A stretch of DNA of 62,942 nt from Chloroflexota bacterium (lineage in GTDB: Bacteria > Chloroflexota > Dormibacteria > Dormibacterales > Dormibacteraceae), in contig VBEK01000128.1 of NCBI GenBank assembly GCA_005889135.1, positions 1 through 62,942 on the forward strand. Reading direction: 5' to 3'. Position numbers and translations under genes: made by a program. Numbering within the stretch: the first letter of the stretch is position 1; the number at the start of each line of letters is the position of its first letter. The notes below the pieces were generated by a model. The model had not been told where the DNA came from, searched no databases, and saw only the letters and a program-made list of their open reading frames with translations. Positions 54,519 to 62,942 of this stretch are shown piece by piece.

Positions 54519-55964
54519 ATGGCAGTTCAGACAAAGTCGGTCAGCAAGACCAGTCCGCGCGAGGTGCTCGAGCGGGCGAAGGCCGAGGGCGTCGAGGTGG
54601 TCGACGTCCGTTTCGTCGACCTTCCCGGCACGTGGCAGCACTTCAGCCTCCCGCTGGGCGAGCTGGACGTCGACAGCTTCAAGGAAGGCCTGGGATTTGA
54701 CGGCTCGAGCATCCGCGGCTTCCAGTCCATCGACGAGAGCGACATGCTGCTCATGCCCGACCCGGAGTCGGCGACGATCGACCCGGTCCTGTCGCACAAG
54801 ACGCTCTTCCTGATCTGCGACGTCGTCGACCCGATCACTCGCGAGCCGTACACCCGCGACACGCGCTTCATCGCCAAGAAGGCGGAGGAGCACCTGCGCA
54901 AGTCGGGCATCGCGGACATCAGCTACTGGGGCCCGGAGGCCGAGTTCTACCTGTTCAACTCGATGCGCTTCGACCAGAACGCGCACAGCGGCTACTACTA
55001 CATCGACTCCGAGGAAGGGATCTGGAACTCGGGCAAGAACTCCGAGCCCAACCTCGCGTTCCGGCCGCGGCACAAGGAGGGTTACTTCCCGGTGCCGCCG
55101 ACCGACAAGCTCCAGGACCTGCGCTCCGAGATCATGCTCAAGCTCATCGAGGCGGGCGTCCGCGTCGAGGTGCAGCACCACGAGGTGGGCACCGCAGGCC
55201 AGGCCGAGATCGACATGCGATTCGACTCCCTGACCAAGATGGGCGACAAGATGATGGTCTACAAGTACGTGATCAAGAACGTCGCCGCGCAGCACGGATA
55301 CGTCGCGACGTTCATGCCCAAGCCTCTCTTCCAGGACAACGGCTCCGGGATGCACGTGCACCAGAGCCTGTGGAAGGACGGCGCCAACCTCTTCGCCGAC
55401 GCGAAGGGCTACGCCGGGCTCTCACAGACGGCCGTCTACTACATCGGCGGGCTGCTGAAGCACGCGGCCGCCCTGCTCGCGATCTGCGCGCCGACGACGA
55501 ACTCGTACCGCCGGCTCGTCCCCGGCTACGAGGCGCCGATCAACCTCGTCTACTCGAAGCGCAACCGCTCGGCGTGCGTGCGCATCCCGATGTACTCGAC
55601 CGACCCGAAGACCAAGCGCGTCGAGTTCCGGTCGCCCGACCCCGCGGCCAACCCCTACCTCGCGTTCTCGGCGTGCCTGATGGCCGGCCTGGACGGGATC
55701 AAGAACAAGATCACGCCGCCGGAGCCGGTGGACAAGGACATCTATGAGCTCGAGGGCGAGGAGAAAGCCCGGATCAAGTCGGTGCCGGGCTCGCTGGGCG
55801 AGTCGCTGGACGCGCTGGAGTCAGACCACGCGTTCCTGCTCGACGGCGGGGTGTTCACATCCGACGTGATCGAGACCTGGATCGAGTACAAGCGCAAGAA
55901 GGAAGTCGACGCGGTCGCGCTGCGGCCGCACCCGTGGGAGTTCATGCTCTACAGCGACGTGTAG
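54519..55964 (+). CDS. glnA: Glutamine synthetase, type I
   Basis: ATP-dependent amidation of glutamate, a dodecamer; 481 residues. [72 protein letters not shown] and RIP are the classical metal, ATP and glutamate sites. A Tyr in [11 protein letters not shown] aligns with the adenylylation site of GSI-beta enzymes (NLYDLPPEE), so covalent control is possible. The ATG at 54519 follows GGAGGGTGTTC. A terminator follows. Confidence 0.96.
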
Positions 55965-55982
55965 TTCGCGACCATTCACTCC

Positions 55983-56018
55983 AAGGGCCCGGGCGGCGCG
56001 CTCGGGCCCTTTCCTTTT
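55983..56018 (+). terminator. Rho-independent terminator of glnA
   Basis: A 9-bp stem AAGGGCCCG (55983-55991) pairs with 56003-56011 across an 11-nt GC loop and runs into TTTCCTTTT (56010-56018). It lies 19 bases after the glnA stop. Confidence 0.88.
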
Positions 56019-56020
56019 GC

Positions 56021-56088
56021 AGCGCGATCGCGCTCCTTTGCGCAAAGAGGGTCTGTCGCGCCCGGCCCATGCACATGTTTGCGCAAAA
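56021..56088. repeat. Cluster of palindromes between convergent glnA and PucR-type regulator
   Basis: A 14-bp perfect palindrome AGCGCGATCGCGCT (56021-56034) is followed by TTTGCGCAAA at 56037-56046 and again at 56078-56087, 41 bp apart. The first extends to 12 bp. They lie between the 3' ends of two convergent genes, so they are not obvious promoters. A role as binding sites, REP-like elements or 3'-end structures is possible. Confidence 0.6.
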
Positions 56089-56092
56089 CGCG

Positions 56093-57865
56093 TCACATCC
56101 CCAGCATCGCCCTCGCGCGCAGCGCGATGCTGATCGCCACCCGCGTCTCCGGGTCGTCGAGCTGCAGCCCGGTCAAGGACTGAATCCGCTCCGCCCGGTA
56201 CGTCATGGAGTTGATGTGGATGCCCAGGTTGCGCGCCGCCGCCCGGCGCACCCATCGCGCCGCCGACAGCGCCTCCAGCGTCTCGAGCAGCGGCGTGTCC
56301 CGCGACTGCGCGTACTCGAGCAGGGGACCCAGCAGCTCGTTGACGAACCGGCGCAGCGCGTCGGGGCTCTGCACCTCGAGCAGAAGCCGAAACGCACCCA
56401 AAGACCGGTACGAAGCCACCCGGCCCCGACCCCCGGCACGCCGCGTCAGGCGCAGCGCCTGCCTCGCCTCCACGTGAGAGCGCGCCAGCTCCCCGACCCC
56501 GTTCGCGAGGTTGCCGATCCCCACCGACGCCGAGCCGGGCTTCATCACCGCCGCCGCGGCCGCGAGCAGTTGGTTCCCCAGCTTCTCGACCGCCGGCAGA
56601 TCGGAGGCGACTTCGTCCGGAACCAGGAACACGGCCGACGACGAGCGCACGAGCGTCAGCGCGCCCGGCAGACGGGAGCGGATCAAACCGCTCAGCGCGG
56701 CATCCAACCTATCCTGCCTGCCGCGCGCCGCCAGCGCCGCCTCGGTCTTGTCGTCGTCCGGCTCGAGCACGACCACCCACGCCTTCTGAGGGAGCCGGTG
56801 TCCGAGCCGCTCCGCCTGTCGGGCGATTCGCTCCGCCTCGTCGGCCTCCAGGCCTCCTGCCAGCACCTCCTCGATCAGGTCGCCGCGCAGGCGCCTCTCG
56901 ACCTCCGCCGCCGCGCGTTCCTTGGACAGCTCTAGCGCGAGCACGGTCGAGCCGTGCTCGAGGGCGCGCAGCCGCCCCTCGGGGTCGACCCCCTCCCCGT
57001 CCAGCTCGACCACGAGCAGGCCGAGCATGTCCGCACCCGCGCGCACGGGCACGACGTCGAGGGTCCGCGGCGGCCGGCCCGCGTTGATCCGCACCTCGCG
57101 CGCGGTGCCGGCGATCGGCGGCACGTGGATGCGCACCGGCATGCCATCCGACGACTCGCCCGCGCCTCGCACACGGTACCCGTCGGGGGAGTACAGAGCC
57201 GCCCGCCCGCCCGCGAGCGAGCCGATCACCTCGAGGATCGACCGGATGCCTGCGCCGTCCAGCGAAAGCTTCGTGAAGCGCTCGTGCGTGTCGTGGGAAA
57301 GGCGGATCTCCGCCAGCTGCACCTCCGTCCGCCGCTGCAGCTCGCTGCGCTCCAGGATGCCCGCGACCTGGGCCGCGATGGCGCGGAGGAAGTCGACGTC
57401 GCCAGAGTTGAACTCGCGCCGTTCGGTGCTCTGGACGTTCAGCACCCCGACCAGGCGCGGCCCCGACTCGATGGGCACCGACGCCATGGAGTGGAAGCGG
57501 TCCTCGTCGAGGCCAGGCACCCATTTCCAGTGCGGTTCCTTGCTCACGTCCGGGACGACCGCCGGCCGGCGCGACTCGGCGACCCAGCCGGTGATACCCT
57601 CGCCGACCTTCATCCGCACCCGGCCGACCATGTTCTCGTTGAGACCGTTCGTGGCCGTCAGCAGCAACTCCTCCCCCGACGGCAGCAGGAGGTACAGGGA
57701 GCAGACGTCGGTGCCGATCGCCGACGTCGTCTCGCGGATGATCAGCTCCAGCAGCTCGTCCGGGCGCTGGGTCGAGGCCGCCGCCTGCGCCAGCCGGACG
57801 AGGAAGCTGAGCTCCCGCGCCGCCAGGCTCGAATCCGGGACCTTGCTCTTCACCGTGTCAACCAC
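56093..57865 (-). CDS. GAF-domain PucR-type transcriptional regulator
   Basis: A 590-residue regulator. An N-terminal GAF domain (about 20-170) has SLYLLLPSGEELLLTATNG and MKVGEGITGWVAESRRPAVV. It is followed by a helical linker, a second sensory-like region (about 200-310), a GGDEF-like CdaR/PucR middle domain, and the C-terminal PucR helix-turn-helix (RWVRRAAARNLGIHINSMTYRAERIQSLTG, read in parts). Such proteins respond to a metabolite or cellular state. The start is GTG 57865. It diverges from the cysteine-desulfurase-like gene, a likely target. Confidence 0.87.
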   Translation of the reverse strand: MVDTVKSKVPDSSLAARELSFLVRLAQAAASTQRPDELLELIIRETTSAIGTDVCSLYLLLPSGEELLLTATNGLNENMVGRVRMKVGEGITGWVAESRRPAVVPDVSKEPHWKWVPGLDEDRFHSMASVPIESGPRLVGVLNVQSTERREFNSGDVDFLRAIAAQVAGILERSELQRRTEVQLAEIRLSHDTHERFTKLSLDGAGIRSILEVIGSLAGGRAALYSPDGYRVRGAGESSDGMPVRIHVPPIAGTAREVRINAGRPPRTLDVVPVRAGADMLGLLVVELDGEGVDPEGRLRALEHGSTVLALELSKERAAAEVERRLRGDLIEEVLAGGLEADEAERIARQAERLGHRLPQKAWVVVLEPDDDKTEAALAARGRQDRLDAALSGLIRSRLPGALTLVRSSSAVFLVPDEVASDLPAVEKLGNQLLAAAAAVMKPGSASVGIGNLANGVGELARSHVEARQALRLTRRAGGRGRVASYRSLGAFRLLLEVQSPDALRRFVNELLGPLLEYAQSRDTPLLETLEALSAARWVRRAAARNLGIHINSMTYRAERIQSLTGLQLDDPETRVAISIALRARAMLGM

Positions 57866-57927
57866 ACCATGGACAAAGCGTTACCTAGTGTGACCGATAC
57901 AGGCTCGACCGGTGCGCGGGTTGAGGG

Positions 57928-57940
57928 TAGATTTCAACCC
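57928..57940 (+). promoter_or_regulatory. Leaderless-type -10 box before the class V aminotransferase
   Basis: TAGATT (57928-57933) plus seven bases leads directly to the GTG start at 57941. No Shine-Dalgarno is present. This sets the start of the downstream gene, whose frame is otherwise open far upstream. Confidence 0.6.
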
Positions 57941-59347
57941 GTGAATTCACCCCACACCGGCCAGTGGCGCGAGCACTTCGCCGGGGTCGACCTGCCGGTC
58001 CCACTCCTGGGCGGGTCCACCGTCACAGGCATCAACTTCGACAACGCCGCCAGCACGCCGCCTCTGACCAGGGTCCGCGACGTCGTGAACGGCTTCTCCG
58101 ACCTTTATTCGAGCGTCCACCGCGGCACGGGCTACAAGTCACGCGTCTCGACCGAGGCTTACGAGCACGCGCGCGAGCGCGTCTCGCAGTTCCTCGGTGT
58201 CGACGAGTCGGACCAGGTCGTGATCTTCGTCAAAGGCACGACCGACGCCCTGAACAGGATCGCAGCGGAAGAGGCGCGCCTGGACGGCCGGCAGGTGCTG
58301 GTCACGGAGATGGAGCATCATGCCGACCTCCTCCCCTGGCGGCATCGCAGCGGGCACGTGATGGTCGGGTTGTCGGACGGCGGCCATATCGACCTCGACG
58401 CCATCGAGCAGGCGCTGAAGAAAGGGCACGGCAAGATCAGCCTCGTCGCCCTCTGCGGCGCGTCCAACGTCACCGGTTTCGTGTCGCCGCTGCACGAGGT
58501 CGCCGAGCTCGCCCATCGCTATGGCGCCCGCATCTCCGTCGACGCGGCGCAGCTCGCGCCTCACCACCGGATCGACGTTCGGCCGGCGGATGACCCCGGG
58601 CACATCGATTTCGTCTCGCTCTCCGGGCACAAGATGTACGCGCCGTACGGTGCGGGCGTTCTCGTCGCCCCGCGTGACTTCTTCGCCGGCGCGCCCGAGG
58701 TCATGGGCGGCGGCGCGATCGACATCGTGACCTGGGATGACACGGTCTGGACCGACCTCCCCGACCGCGAGGAGGCCGGGTCGCCCAACGTCATCGGCGC
58801 GGTCGCGCTCGGAGTCGCCATCGAGACATTGCTCGAGCTGGGGTTCGAGGCCATGCTCGAGGACGAGATGGCTCTCGGCACGCGGATGCTCGAAGGCCTG
58901 ACCGAGATCCCCGGCGTGGGCGTGCTCGGTGGCGCGGAGCCCTCCACCCCGGGAGGACGTCTCGCGCTGAGCAGCTTCGTGGTCGAGGGTTTGCACCACG
59001 GCCTGGTCGCAGCCGCGCTCAGCCACGAGCATGGGATCGCCGTGCGCCACGGGTGCTTCTGCGCCAACCCCTACGTCTTCCACCTGCTGCACATGAGCAA
59101 AGCCGAGGTCGTGCAGGTCGAGGGTGAGGTCACCGCCGGCCGGCGCAAGGCCCTGCCCGGAGCGGTGAGGGCGAGTCTTGCGCCCTACAACACCGAGGCG
59201 GAGGTCGACCGGTTCCTCGAGGCGGTCGCCAGCATCGCCCGCGGCCGGATCAGGGCGAGCTACGAGCAGGCCGCGGACGGGACCTTCGCGCCGGCCGGGG
59301 GCTGGCCGCGCATCCCAAGCCCGCTGCACGCCATCGTGAAACACTAG
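57941..59347 (+). CDS. Class V aminotransferase, cysteine-desulfurase-like
   Basis: A PLP enzyme of 468 residues. INFDNAASTPPL opens the fold, EMEHHADLLPW carries the PLP-stacking His, and VDAAQLAPH has the pyridine-N-binding Asp. The Schiff-base Lys is in SLSGHKMYAPYGAG. A Cys pair in RHGCFCANPYVF lies where the catalytic cysteine of SufS/IscS-type desulfurases sits. It may therefore mobilise sulfur, but no suf or isc gene is near, and a lyase or epimerase role is possible. The start is GTG 57941. Confidence 0.85.
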   Translation: MNSPHTGQWREHFAGVDLPVPLLGGSTVTGINFDNAASTPPLTRVRDVVNGFSDLYSSVHRGTGYKSRVSTEAYEHARERVSQFLGVDESDQVVIFVKGTTDALNRIAAEEARLDGRQVLVTEMEHHADLLPWRHRSGHVMVGLSDGGHIDLDAIEQALKKGHGKISLVALCGASNVTGFVSPLHEVAELAHRYGARISVDAAQLAPHHRIDVRPADDPGHIDFVSLSGHKMYAPYGAGVLVAPRDFFAGAPEVMGGGAIDIVTWDDTVWTDLPDREEAGSPNVIGAVALGVAIETLLELGFEAMLEDEMALGTRMLEGLTEIPGVGVLGGAEPSTPGGRLALSSFVVEGLHHGLVAAALSHEHGIAVRHGCFCANPYVFHLLHMSKAEVVQVEGEVTAGRRKALPGAVRASLAPYNTEAEVDRFLEAVASIARGRIRASYEQAADGTFAPAGGWPRIPSPLHAIVKH

Positions 59348-59355
59348 GAAGCGCT

Positions 59356-59547
59356 GTGATCAAGTTCATCGTCGAGGTCCTGCTGGCGATCTTCCTGCAC
59401 CCTGTCGCCTTCGTGCTTGCCGTGATCGACATCGTCAACCGCAAGGACATGGGCGGGCTGGCGAAGTTCTTGTGGATCATCATCAGCTTCTTCTGGGGCA
59501 TCGGCCCGATTCTCTACATCGTGCTGGGGGGCGGGAAGCTCTGGTGA
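59356..59547 (+). CDS. Small membrane protein, PLDc_N-like
   Basis: A 63-residue protein with two hydrophobic helices. The motif NRKDMGGLAKFLWIIISFFW followed by GIGPILYIVLGGGK resembles the short membrane module found before phospholipase-D-like domains and as free-standing proteins. The start is GTG 59356, eight bases after the aminotransferase stop, so it is co-transcribed. The function is unknown. Confidence 0.7.
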   Translation: MIKFIVEVLLAIFLHPVAFVLAVIDIVNRKDMGGLAKFLWIIISFFWGIGPILYIVLGGGKLW

Positions 59548-59559
59548 CCTGCTGACACC

Positions 59560-59787
59560 GTGAGAGACCGCGCCGCGACCAGGGCTCTGGTGCTCGGCCT
59601 GCTGGCGCTTCCCTTCGGCATCTTCGCTCCTTTCGCAATCGTCAGCGGCGCGCGCTCGCTGCGCCGGATCCGCGCGTCGGGCGGCGATCTGCGTGGCGAG
59701 GCGAGCGCGACGGCCGGCCTGGTGGCGGGCATCGTCGCGCTGGCGACGATCCTGGCTGGCGTCGGGTACTGGGTCATCGCGTCGTGA
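59560..59787 (+). CDS. Small DUF4190-like membrane protein
   Basis: A 75-residue protein with two membrane helices around a basic loop (ARSLRRIRASGG). The pattern of LGLLALPFGIFAPFAIVSG, then GEASATAGLVAGIVALATI, is typical of DUF4190-type proteins. The GTG start lies 12 bp after the previous gene. Its stop overlaps the next start (GTGA), so it is coupled to the glycosidase gene. The function is unknown. Confidence 0.7.
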   Translation: MRDRAATRALVLGLLALPFGIFAPFAIVSGARSLRRIRASGGDLRGEASATAGLVAGIVALATILAGVGYWVIAS

Positions 59788-61445
59788 TCCGGCGAGTGGT
59801 TTTCGTCTTGCTCGTGGTGGTGATCGCCACGCTCACCTACCCGGGTGCGCTGCTCGTCTCCCTCGCGGTGATGCTCGCGCCCGCGCCTCAGTCGACCGCG
59901 GGCCCGCAGGGGGCGCTCCCCTGGCTTCACGTCGCGCACCCCACGGGCGCGACGCCGTACATCGCCGACGACCAGGGACGCATGGTGATCCTGCACGGAG
60001 CCACACCGGCGGGCCTGATCGAGTTCGGCCCGGGCACCGCACCCGTCTACCCGCTCGATCCCGCGGCGTACGCGGACGGAAATTGTCCCGCGCAGTCCGG
60101 GAAGTACTGGCCGCTGTGCCGGTCAGACCTTGAGGCGATGGCGCGGCTCGGCTTCAACTCCGTGCGCGTGCCCATCTCCTGGAGCGTCCTCGAGCCAACG
60201 CGGGGCGCGTTCAGCCAGGCGCTGGTCGATCGCCTGGCGCAGATAGTCGATTGGGCTCGGGCGCTGCGGATGTACGTGATCATCGACATGCACCAGAACG
60301 CCTTCTCTCACTACGTCGACCCGGGCGACGGGGTCAACCTCGGCTTCAACAGCGGCGCTCCGAAGTGGGCGACGATCTCGGACGGGTTTCCCTCCCGCGC
60401 GCTCAACGCTCAACGCGAGCTCAACCCCGCGGTGTTCGAGGCCACGACCAATTTCTGGTACGACCGGGATGGCATCCAGGACGAGTACGTAGCCGCGCTC
60501 GCCTTCATCGCCCGGCGCTTCGTCGACGACCCGGTGGTCGCCGGCTACGGCGTCTACAACGAGCCCTGGCCTGGCTGGAACCTGGACCCCGGATTCGACG
60601 ACCTCTTGCTGTTTCCGTTCTTCCGGCGCGTCGTCGACGCGCTCACCGGGACGCATGATGGACTTCCCTGCTGGTCAGGCTTCTTCATGCCTGCGGTTTG
60701 CGGCTACCGCGACCTCGGAGTCGACGACCGGCGCCACCTGATGTTCCTCGACACCGGTTTGCCGAGGGAGATCCTCGACTTTCCAACTCACCTGGGCCTG
60801 CCCTTCAGCTCCTACCCGAACCTCGTGCTCGCGCTCCACGCGTACACGCATTTCTATACTCCGGACAAGCTTGTCTTCAACCAGAACCCACGCGACGCGA
60901 GCTATCCGTGGGGCGGATATGAGCAGAGCTACGTCTTCGCGGAACGGGAGGCCAGGGCCATGGGCGCGGCGCTGTTCGTCGAGGAATTCGGCGACAACCC
61001 AGCGGATGACCCGGAGATCCTGGCCAACCAGCTCCTGGAGCAGGAGAAGCACAGAGTCGGCTTTGCCTTCTGGACGTGGAAGGAGAAGGGCGGTGGCTCG
61101 TGGGGTGTGTTCGCTCCCGACGGGTCCTGCATTCGTGCCGGCAGGGAGCGTCTGCTGGCGAGGGTCTATCCGCGCCTGACATCGGATCCGGAAGTCTTCT
61201 TCCACTACGACTACGGCGAAGGACGCTTCACGATGCACGCCACGGGCCGTGCCGGAGACTCGAGCACCGTCGTCTACGTCCCACCAGAGGTCACCGGCGA
61301 GGTCACCGCCGGCGGGGCGGCGATGCTTGTGGTGAGCACGGACGACGGCGACGGAAGTCGCCTGGCCTTTGTCACGCCGACCGGCGGCGCGTACACGATC
61401 GCGGTCTCGCCCGCGCCGCTCCGCCTGGGCGGCTGCGGCAGCTGA
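59784..61445 (+). CDS. Secreted or membrane-anchored glycoside hydrolase family 5
   Basis: A 553-residue enzyme with an N-terminal signal/anchor helix. The GH5 (TIM-barrel) catalytic pair is visible: acid/base Glu in VYNEPWPGW and nucleophile Glu in LFVEEFGDNPADD. GFNSVRVPISWSVLEP, VIIDMHQNAFSHY and FAFWTWKEKGGGSWG are typical of the endoglycoceramidase-like subfamily. A C-terminal beta domain (about 465-550) follows. The substrate may be a glycolipid or beta-glucan. The GTG at 59784 overlaps the DUF4190-like stop. Confidence 0.87.
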   Translation: MIRRVVFVLLVVVIATLTYPGALLVSLAVMLAPAPQSTAGPQGALPWLHVAHPTGATPYIADDQGRMVILHGATPAGLIEFGPGTAPVYPLDPAAYADGNCPAQSGKYWPLCRSDLEAMARLGFNSVRVPISWSVLEPTRGAFSQALVDRLAQIVDWARALRMYVIIDMHQNAFSHYVDPGDGVNLGFNSGAPKWATISDGFPSRALNAQRELNPAVFEATTNFWYDRDGIQDEYVAALAFIARRFVDDPVVAGYGVYNEPWPGWNLDPGFDDLLLFPFFRRVVDALTGTHDGLPCWSGFFMPAVCGYRDLGVDDRRHLMFLDTGLPREILDFPTHLGLPFSSYPNLVLALHAYTHFYTPDKLVFNQNPRDASYPWGGYEQSYVFAEREARAMGAALFVEEFGDNPADDPEILANQLLEQEKHRVGFAFWTWKEKGGGSWGVFAPDGSCIRAGRERLLARVYPRLTSDPEVFFHYDYGEGRFTMHATGRAGDSSTVVYVPPEVTGEVTAGGAAMLVVSTDDGDGSRLAFVTPTGGAYTIAVSPAPLRLGGCGS

Positions 61446-61511
61446 GTCCCACGCAGTTCTTAGGACATTTGCACCACCGGAGATTAATTTCCCCTCCGAC
61501 CTGGCATGGGC

Positions 61512-61527
61512 TAATCTGGAGAACAGG
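61512..61527 (+). promoter_or_regulatory. Start region of the FtsE-FtsX fusion gene
   Basis: TAATCT (61512-61517) is a plausible -10 box. GGAG (61518-61521) lies six bases before the GTG at 61528 and can serve as a ribosome site, though transcription from this -10 would leave little of it. The 82-bp gap after the glycosidase has no terminator, so read-through is also possible. Confidence 0.4.
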
Positions 61528-62942
61528 GTGGGAAGCCGACCAGCCATTTCTGGCCGCGTTCGCACGTCCCAGAACGGCAACGGCGCCGAGGCCGCGCGAC
61601 CGCAGAGATCGGAGGGGATCGGGCGTCCTCGAGTCAGTGGCGCGGTCGCGCCTGAGCCCGCGGTCAGGCTCGTCGGCGTCTCCAAGGCGTACGGCAAGAC
61701 CCGCGTCCTGAAAGGCATCAACCTCACCGTCGGCCAGGGCGAGCTGTTCGAGATCGCAGGTCCCAGCGGCTCCGGCAAGACGACTCTGCTCCGTCTCGTC
61801 CACGGCCAGCTCCGCCCCAACGCCGGCGAGCTGTGGGTGCGCGGGAGAGGCCTCCACCGGCGGTGGCGCCGTGGCCTGGGCGGGCTGCGCCGGGACGTCG
61901 CGTTCATCTTCCAGGAGCAGCGCCTTCTCCCCCGACTCAACGCGTTCGAGAACATCGTCTTTGCGCTGCAGCTGCGCGATCCCCAGGTCCCGAACAAGGT
62001 CATCAAGCAGCGCGCCCTCGAGGCGCTGGAGTCCGTGAAGCTTGCCCACCGCCGGCGCGCCTATCCGCACGAGCTGTCGGCGGGCGAGCGCCAGCGGGTC
62101 GCGGTCGCCCGAGCGCTGGCCACGCGCCCGCGCGTCCTGCTGGCCGACGAACCCCTGGCTTCGATGGACGACCAGAACGCCGCCATCATCACCCACCTTC
62201 TCGAGGACGCTGCGGCGAAGGGGACGACGGTGATCGTCGCCTCGCACAAGCACTCATTCGCGGCCACCCGCGTGCTTCGCCTTCCAAGTGAGCGCGTGAT
62301 GACCAACGGCGTCAAACGTCCGACCCCGATGAACGGCAACGCCTATGTCAACGGAGCGGCCAACGGCAACGGGAACCACAACGGCAACGGCCACACCAAC
62401 GGCGCCTCCACACCGCGCGCCTGGTGGCGCATGGTGATCCCGGCGCGCCCTCGCCCCCACCGCGCGGCGCGGCCTCAGCGCCTACCCCTGTGGCGCCGCT
62501 CCGCCGCGTTCGCGGCCAACGCCTACCGGCTCGTCCTCCTCAACGGCCTGCGGAGCTGGAGCCGGGACATCCGCCTGGCCGCCCCGGTCGTGGGCACGGT
62601 TTCGCTTCTGCTCGTGTTGTGCGGGACGCTCGCGCTCGTGGGCATCACCGTCCAGCGCGCCGTGGCCGATCAGACGGGCCAGGCGTCGGTGGTCCGCGTC
62701 TACCTCGCCGACGGGGCGTCGCAGACCTCCATCGACGCGCTCGAAGCCCGCCTTCAGGCTGACTCGCGAGTCGAGTCGGTGAGATATCTCACGCCTGCGC
62801 AGGCGCTCGAGGAGGCAAGCAAACGACCGGGCCTCGACAGCCTTGCCAGCCTGAGCTCCACCAACCCCTTCCCCGCCAGCCTGGACGTCAAGGTCCGGCT
62901 CGTCACCCAGGTGGCGGCCGTCGCCGGATCGGTGAAGGGCGA
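61528..62942 (+). CDS. FtsE-FtsX fusion protein (partial, runs off the window)
   Basis: One uninterrupted frame from GTG 61528 to the window edge, 471 residues seen. After a 45-residue Asn/Gly/Pro/Arg tail comes an FtsE-type ATPase. Walker A GPSGSGKTT is at 78-86, the Q-loop FQEQRLLPRLNAFENIVFAL at 128-147, the signature LSAGE at 183-187, Walker B LLADEP at 204-209 and the H-loop His at 240. A linker rich in Asn-Gly (about 267-294) leads, without a stop, into FtsX. This has a cytoplasmic helix LVLLNGLRSWSRDIRLA, a membrane helix at about 352-375, and the extracellular domain with the family motif NPFPASLDVKV at 446-456. Normally these are two proteins regulating cell-wall hydrolases at division. 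The C-terminal helices are beyond the window. Confidence 0.9.
   Translation, partial: MGSRPAISGRVRTSQNGNGAEAARPQRSEGIGRPRVSGAVAPEPAVRLVGVSKAYGKTRVLKGINLTVGQGELFEIAGPSGSGKTTLLRLVHGQLRPNAGELWVRGRGLHRRWRRGLGGLRRDVAFIFQEQRLLPRLNAFENIVFALQLRDPQVPNKVIKQRALEALESVKLAHRRRAYPHELSAGERQRVAVARALATRPRVLLADEPLASMDDQNAAIITHLLEDAAAKGTTVIVASHKHSFAATRVLRLPSERVMTNGVKRPTPMNGNAYVNGAANGNGNHNGNGHTNGASTPRAWWRMVIPARPRPHRAARPQRLPLWRRSAAFAANAYRLVLLNGLRSWSRDIRLAAPVVGTVSLLLVLCGTLALVGITVQRAVADQTGQASVVRVYLADGASQTSIDALEARLQADSRVESVRYLTPAQALEEASKRPGLDSLASLSSTNPFPASLDVKVRLVTQVAAVAGSVKG

Follow-up and report, generated by a model that had tools for sequence, protein, structure and literature searches.

A conserved single-chain FtsE-FtsX protein encoded beside an M23 peptidase gene in one family of Dormibacteria

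The window, i.e., the whole stretch of 62,942 nucleotides analyzed here, constitutes the entire contig C122 of a 2.95-Mb MAG assembled in 221 contigs (94.7% complete). Near its right end, on the + strand as are all features of the gene described here, a frame opened by a GTG codon at 61528 runs without a stop codon to the last nucleotide, 62942, and spans FtsE, a linker and the beginning of FtsX (codons 1–471 of 623). A Shine-Dalgarno-like GGAG can be read from the sequence at 61518..61521, 6 nt upstream of the start codon, and a search against Rfam found no match in 55900–62942. Pfam places both ABC_tran (aa 61–211, 114 bits) and FtsX_ECD (aa 389–470, 54 bits against a cut-off of 23.5 bits) on this one chain. 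Because the window comprises all of contig C122, the end of the gene was invisible to the reader who prepared the preliminary description of this DNA. The final 127 nt of the window (62816..62942) recur without a mismatch as the opening 127 nt of C192, another contig of this MAG, a pattern that k-mer assembly would be expected to leave where the graph breaks, and C192 carries the remaining part of ftsX (L059:128-584) followed by genes for an M23 peptidase and ApbE. The join of the two contigs is supported by agreement with the gene order in relatives, namely glnA, a PucR-type regulator, cysteine desulfurase, (GH5), ftsEX, M23 and, further on, ApbE. The joined sequence encodes a chain of 623 aa consisting of an N-terminal tail (1–44), FtsE (45–253), a linker (254–319) and FtsX (320–623), with four hydrophobic helices predicted from hydropathy at approximately 355–373, 494–512, 550–578 and 598–616. 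The full FtsX with four helices that the preliminary description proposed to look for beyond the end of the window is thus predicted from the joined sequence.

The FtsE-type nucleotide-binding domain (NBD) occupies 61660..62286 and has intact Walker A, Q-loop, Walker B with its catalytic Glu, and H-loop His. Walker A (GPSGSGKTT, aa 78–86) is located at 61759..61785, the ABC signature (LSAGERQ, from aa 183) at 62074..62094, Walker B and the catalytic Glu (VLLADEP, from aa 203) at 62134..62154, and the H-loop (ASHKH, with the His at aa 240) at 62239..62253. The signature of the fused proteins is LSAGE, whereas their split sister in genome G021 and the split paralogs mostly have LSGG[E/Q] and no SAGE; likewise, the motif ADEPTGNLD of the paralogs is replaced by ADEPLASMD-like sequences in the fused proteins. 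The best NCBIfam match of this half is the FtsE model TIGR02673, at 188 bits. Because this score is below the equivalog cut-off of 264.85 bits, the fused FtsE half is, judged by profile comparison, an FtsE paralog and not the orthologous FtsE, and the low score together with the LSAGE signature may reflect a shift of activity or role.

The FtsX part begins at 62485 and continues to 62942 in the window, as delimited by Pfam FtsX_ECD and hydropathy, with the first transmembrane helix (TM1) at 62590–62646, the extracellular domain starting at 62692 and cut by the contig end, and the motif NPFPAS (aa 446–451) at 62863–62880. In the complete chain, this half matches both FtsX_ECD and the FtsX C-terminal domain of Pfam above cut-off and contains four hydrophobic segments. 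Among solved structures it is closest to 8tzj (3e-13), which we take to be a V. cholerae-type FtsX, and 8idb (4e-11), presumably the FtsX of M. tuberculosis, compared with 0.009 for LolF and 0.17 for LolE. An AlphaFold model of the fusion built from 5 sequences had a pLDDT of 44, which is too poor for use. Overall, the protein shares with FtsEX the FtsX-type TMD with FtsX_ECD and four TM helices, an FtsE NBD with intact ATPase motifs apart from the signature altered to LSAGE, and a coiled-coil hydrolase or activator encoded by the adjoining M23 gene, with which its interaction is predicted; it departs from FtsEX in its sub-cut-off TIGR02673 score and in being a single frame where FtsEX has separate FtsE and FtsX subunits.

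The M23 gene (L059:581-1888) overlaps the stop codon of the fused gene by 4 nt (GTGA) and encodes a secreted coiled-coil peptidase of 435 aa with a hydrophobic, signal-like N-terminus and an M23 domain in which HxxxD and HxH are intact. Its structural model is a predicted helical hairpin with arms of ~90 residues, confident at the coiled-coil tips only. An M23 gene directly follows the fusion wherever the contig reaches that far, and, in the class as a whole, most split ftsEX pairs on sufficiently long contigs are likewise followed by a similar M23 gene. The adjoining, overlapping M23 gene, which was out of sight for the preliminary description, is the best clue to the function of the fusion.

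A search with a profile built from 13 fused proteins detected the unbroken fused frame in 30 of the 42 genomes of the family, representing 8 genera, and in none of the 68 other genomes of the class; in this count the genome of the window (G000) was taken across its two contigs and G025 contributed two matches in one frame of 637 aa. Across 251 genomes surveyed from the phylum, matches covering both modules were confined to this family of uncultured soil Dormibacteria, and one scan of genome contigs for close relatives yielded full-length matches in Dormibacteria-type MAGs only. The FtsE and FtsX modules and the linker are under purifying selection, with within-genus dN/dS of 0.09–0.16 for FtsE, 0.13–0.19 for FtsX and 0.14–0.38 for the linker. 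An exception to the unbroken frame is G009 (L172 ~2540-2580), where a deletion of ~140 nt and a frameshift at FtsX TM1 disrupt the gene; either a fault of the assembly or a pseudogene could explain this. In G017, contigs C223 (L199) and C86 (L070) share 97% identity across 923 nt of the FtsX/M23 region, which probably reflects strain variation within the bin.

The preliminary description pointed to two Asn/Gly-containing segments. The extra N-terminal tail (61528..61659) does exist as a low-complexity segment with one Asn-Gly patch but it is nearly unconstrained (within-genus dN/dS of 0.72–0.95 for aa 1–44). The interdomain linker (62287..62484) is indeed NG-rich in the window, with a core at aa 257–292 (62296..62403), and long Asn-Gly repeats characterize genera g1, g2, g3 and g9, but linkers are short with few or no repeats in genera g4, g7, g10 and g11 (L068/L069, L073, L074/L075, L077). 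Judging from this comparison the repeats are dispensable, and since they vary among genera, the linker is best read as a flexible spacer with no conserved functional element. The Asn-Gly linker as the key feature of the protein, being variable and in four genera short or nearly absent, is ruled out.

The genome of the window contains three FtsEX systems, namely the fusion and two split pairs on contigs C188 and C192, so that the separate ftsE and ftsX genes the preliminary description had suggested looking for are indeed found elsewhere in the genome. This rules out the fusion as the sole FtsEX of its genome; because two ordinary split ftsE-ftsX pairs accompany it, the fusion is a specialized extra paralog and did not replace the separate genes. 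The FtsE of the C188 pair scores 286 bits against TIGR02673, and is the only copy to pass the cut-off; that of the C192 pair scores 244. The split ftsE-ftsX-M23 set on C192 (L174, G000:C192:35000-44285) lies on the joined contig at a distance of ~40 kb past the fusion, which suggests an old local duplication. Like the split orthologs in G021 and G023, this set has the gene order of the fusion and a common ancestry with it. Genomes of this family typically have three FtsX copies, compared with at most one, never fused, in the other families of the class. One genome (G029) has five FtsX copies, more than three FtsEX types occur in some genomes of the family, and the split paralogs L161, L164 (G029), L148, L151 and L156 branch close to where the fused lineage begins, on long branches.

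In a tree of the combined FtsE and FtsX sequences, the 18 fused rows form one clade (support 96/95), whose sister is the split G021 copy, and when the FtsE tree is rooted on other families, the FtsE sequences of the split G021 and G023 pairs fall just outside the fused clade. The FtsX-only tree, where branches are long and single-gene placement is weak, has the split G021 copy nested within the fused clade, which allows for one re-split or two fusions. Considering these trees, the fusion most likely had a single origin within one Dormibacteria family, starting from an extra ftsE-ftsX pair. The end of ftsE and the start of ftsX in G021 share a 4-nt overlap, GTGA, so a small frame-changing indel at such a junction would suffice to produce the fusion.

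The possibility that the single chain is an artefact, i.e., that a frameshift error or a chimeric joint merged two genes, deserves attention because there is a precedent: DR_1550 of Deinococcus radiodurans BAA-816, which like the present gene is one annotated chain over ftsE and ftsX beside an M23 gene, is annotated as an FtsE of 576 aa, whereas the resequenced strain has ftsE and ftsX as two genes (PMC11219805). In addition, the present locus is at a contig end and its linker is repetitive. However, the FtsE/FtsX joint itself is internal to the contig, away from its edge, and the identical frame and joint recur in 30 separate genomes, unlike the Deinococcus case. Because the frame is shared by these genomes, and purifying selection acts at the codon level on both modules and across the linker, an assembly artefact is ruled out to near certainty. 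No stop codon or frameshift separates the two modules, and the repetition of the joint in independent assemblies of relatives argues against chimerism and bears out the earlier claim of a natural covalent chain with the NBD first. A different objection is that one frame could yield two products, through translation starting within the linker (at ATG 62299 or 62329) or proteolysis of the linker, which would restore an ordinary 2+2 FtsEX. The linker in the window contains in-frame ATG or GTG codons at 62296, 62299, 62329 and 62431, an MTNG start-like codon is conserved in genus g1, and disordered Asn-Gly linkers are easily cleaved. These linker start codons, however, have no good Shine-Dalgarno sequence upstream and the conserved ATG is missing from the linkers of other genera. 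In G022, there is no ATG, GTG or TTG between the NBD and TM1 (L075), nor any in frame in the 100 codons upstream of TM1, so that FtsX could hardly be made separately there. We therefore consider the two-product scheme unlikely for the fused proteins, and an additional free FtsX initiated at the linker ATGs a possibility in the genus of the window.

With regard to function, we think it quite probable that this genuine natural fusion, in which a flexible linker connects an FtsE-type ATPase to an FtsX with four predicted helices, acts as a homodimeric type VII ABC mechanotransmitter and regulates the co-encoded M23 peptidase. Two NBD-TMD chains would form a homodimer arranged like MacB, and the NBDs, on binding or hydrolyzing ATP, would shift the extracellular domains; these domains would hold and release the secreted coiled-coil M23 peptidase, in the way FtsEX handles RipC, PcsB, CwlO or EnvC. 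Activation of the M23 enzyme is proposed because direct activation of coiled-coil hydrolases is known for FtsEX of mycobacteria and Gram-positives (PMC10694151). The single chain with the NBD first, and the FtsE half falling under the equivalog cut-off, could be taken to indicate an exporter or extractor like MacB or LolCDE instead of an FtsEX-type regulator of a peptidoglycan hydrolase; nevertheless, the best NCBIfam match of the NBD is FtsE, the extracellular domain belongs to FtsX_ECD, the TMD matches solved FtsX structures best and LolF and LolE far more weakly, the M23 gene comes next as it does for split FtsEX paralogs, and the conserved neighborhood showed no gene of the MacA or TolC type. 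This makes an exporter very improbable, and membership in the MacB or Lol groups is unsupported. The MacB-like resemblance noted in the preliminary description holds for the single-chain, NBD-first layout but does not extend to the TMD and the extracellular domain, which are FtsX-type. The cellular process served by the fusion is a separate matter. An FtsEX-M23 unit dedicated to elongation, sporulation-like differentiation or stress remodeling, while the canonical split FtsEX on C188 performs division, has a chance not far short of even: the family has three FtsEX units per genome as opposed to one elsewhere in the class, the C188 copy alone passes the FtsE cut-off, and B. subtilis FtsEX reportedly acts on CwlO in elongation (PMC6705773). 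Such a role is compatible with the mechanotransmitter interpretation, which makes no claim about septation. More tentatively, the fused proteins could constitute an FtsEX subfamily of single chains whose ATPase is regulated in its own way (the conserved LSAGE and an NBD tied to FtsX) and which has its own M23 endopeptidase, serving a wall-remodeling step apart from the division job of canonical FtsEX.

Among characterized systems, FtsEX-RipC of M. tuberculosis, FtsEX-PcsB of S. pneumoniae and FtsEX-CwlO of B. subtilis likewise combine an FtsE-type NBD, a four-helix FtsX with FtsX_ECD and a secreted coiled-coil hydrolase with catalytic motifs, but the fusion is one chain, and the hydrolase co-encoded with it through a 4-nt overlap is of the M23 type where theirs is NlpC/P60 or CHAP. 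In E. coli FtsEX-EnvC, where FtsE and FtsX are separate, the partner is also a helical hairpin with an M23/LytM domain, but the HxxxD and HxH motifs are intact in the present peptidase, whereas the LytM domain of EnvC is degenerate and EnvC activates amidases (PMC11627006). MacB has the same N-terminal NBD fused to a four-helix TMD in an expected homodimer, and differs from the fusion, which has the FtsX_ECD, the FtsX-like TMD and the M23 partner and was seen with no MacA/TolC-type partner genes. The split ftsE-ftsX-M23 paralogs of the family differ in being separate genes. In agreement with the preliminary description, which knew of no characterized FtsEX fusion, our search of open-access papers found no description of a natural one; the only fused annotation it turned up was that of DR_1550 in Deinococcus, where the strain records disagree. 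The FtsEX system itself is already known, the conserved natural fusion is confined to one family among the genomes of the phylum surveyed, and the surprise is limited since NBD-TMD fusions are common among ABC proteins generally.

All treatments of FtsEX regard it as a 2+2 complex with an NBD and a TMD that can separate. A conserved single-chain FtsEX would mean that dissociation of FtsE from FtsX is unnecessary for function, at least in the fused paralog, and the fusion offers a clean test for FtsE roles away from FtsX. It also recreates the MacB layout within FtsEX and gives structural biologists a single-chain construct that nature has already made. With three FtsEX-M23 units in each genome, the family represents a natural experiment in division of labor among wall-hydrolase switches. 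As to the benefit of tethering, the preliminary description held that it fixes stoichiometry. Published FtsEX is already a 2+2 complex (PMC10694151); fixed stoichiometry would be one conceivable advantage, and a permanently tethered NBD, unable to dissociate from FtsX, would be an equally plausible one. In cryo-EM work, ligand binding is reported to stabilize the FtsE-FtsX association (PMC11491553).

Several further genes are found around the fusion. A GH5-family glycoside hydrolase (Pfam Cellulase) is encoded just upstream of ftsEX at 59784–61445 and has a weak endoglycoceramidase match (108 bits against a cut-off of 700 bits); GH5 occupies this position in many relatives and is missing from it in L062, L064, L068, L069 and L075. 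On the other side, acyltransferase and pyridoxamine-phosphate-oxidase-type genes are located between M23 and ApbE in the genome of the window, and the genes 3' of M23 in L062, L064, L066, L069 and L074, named by eye from their translations, encode a ferric-reductase-like membrane protein, an RnfC-like protein, ApbE and a two-component system.
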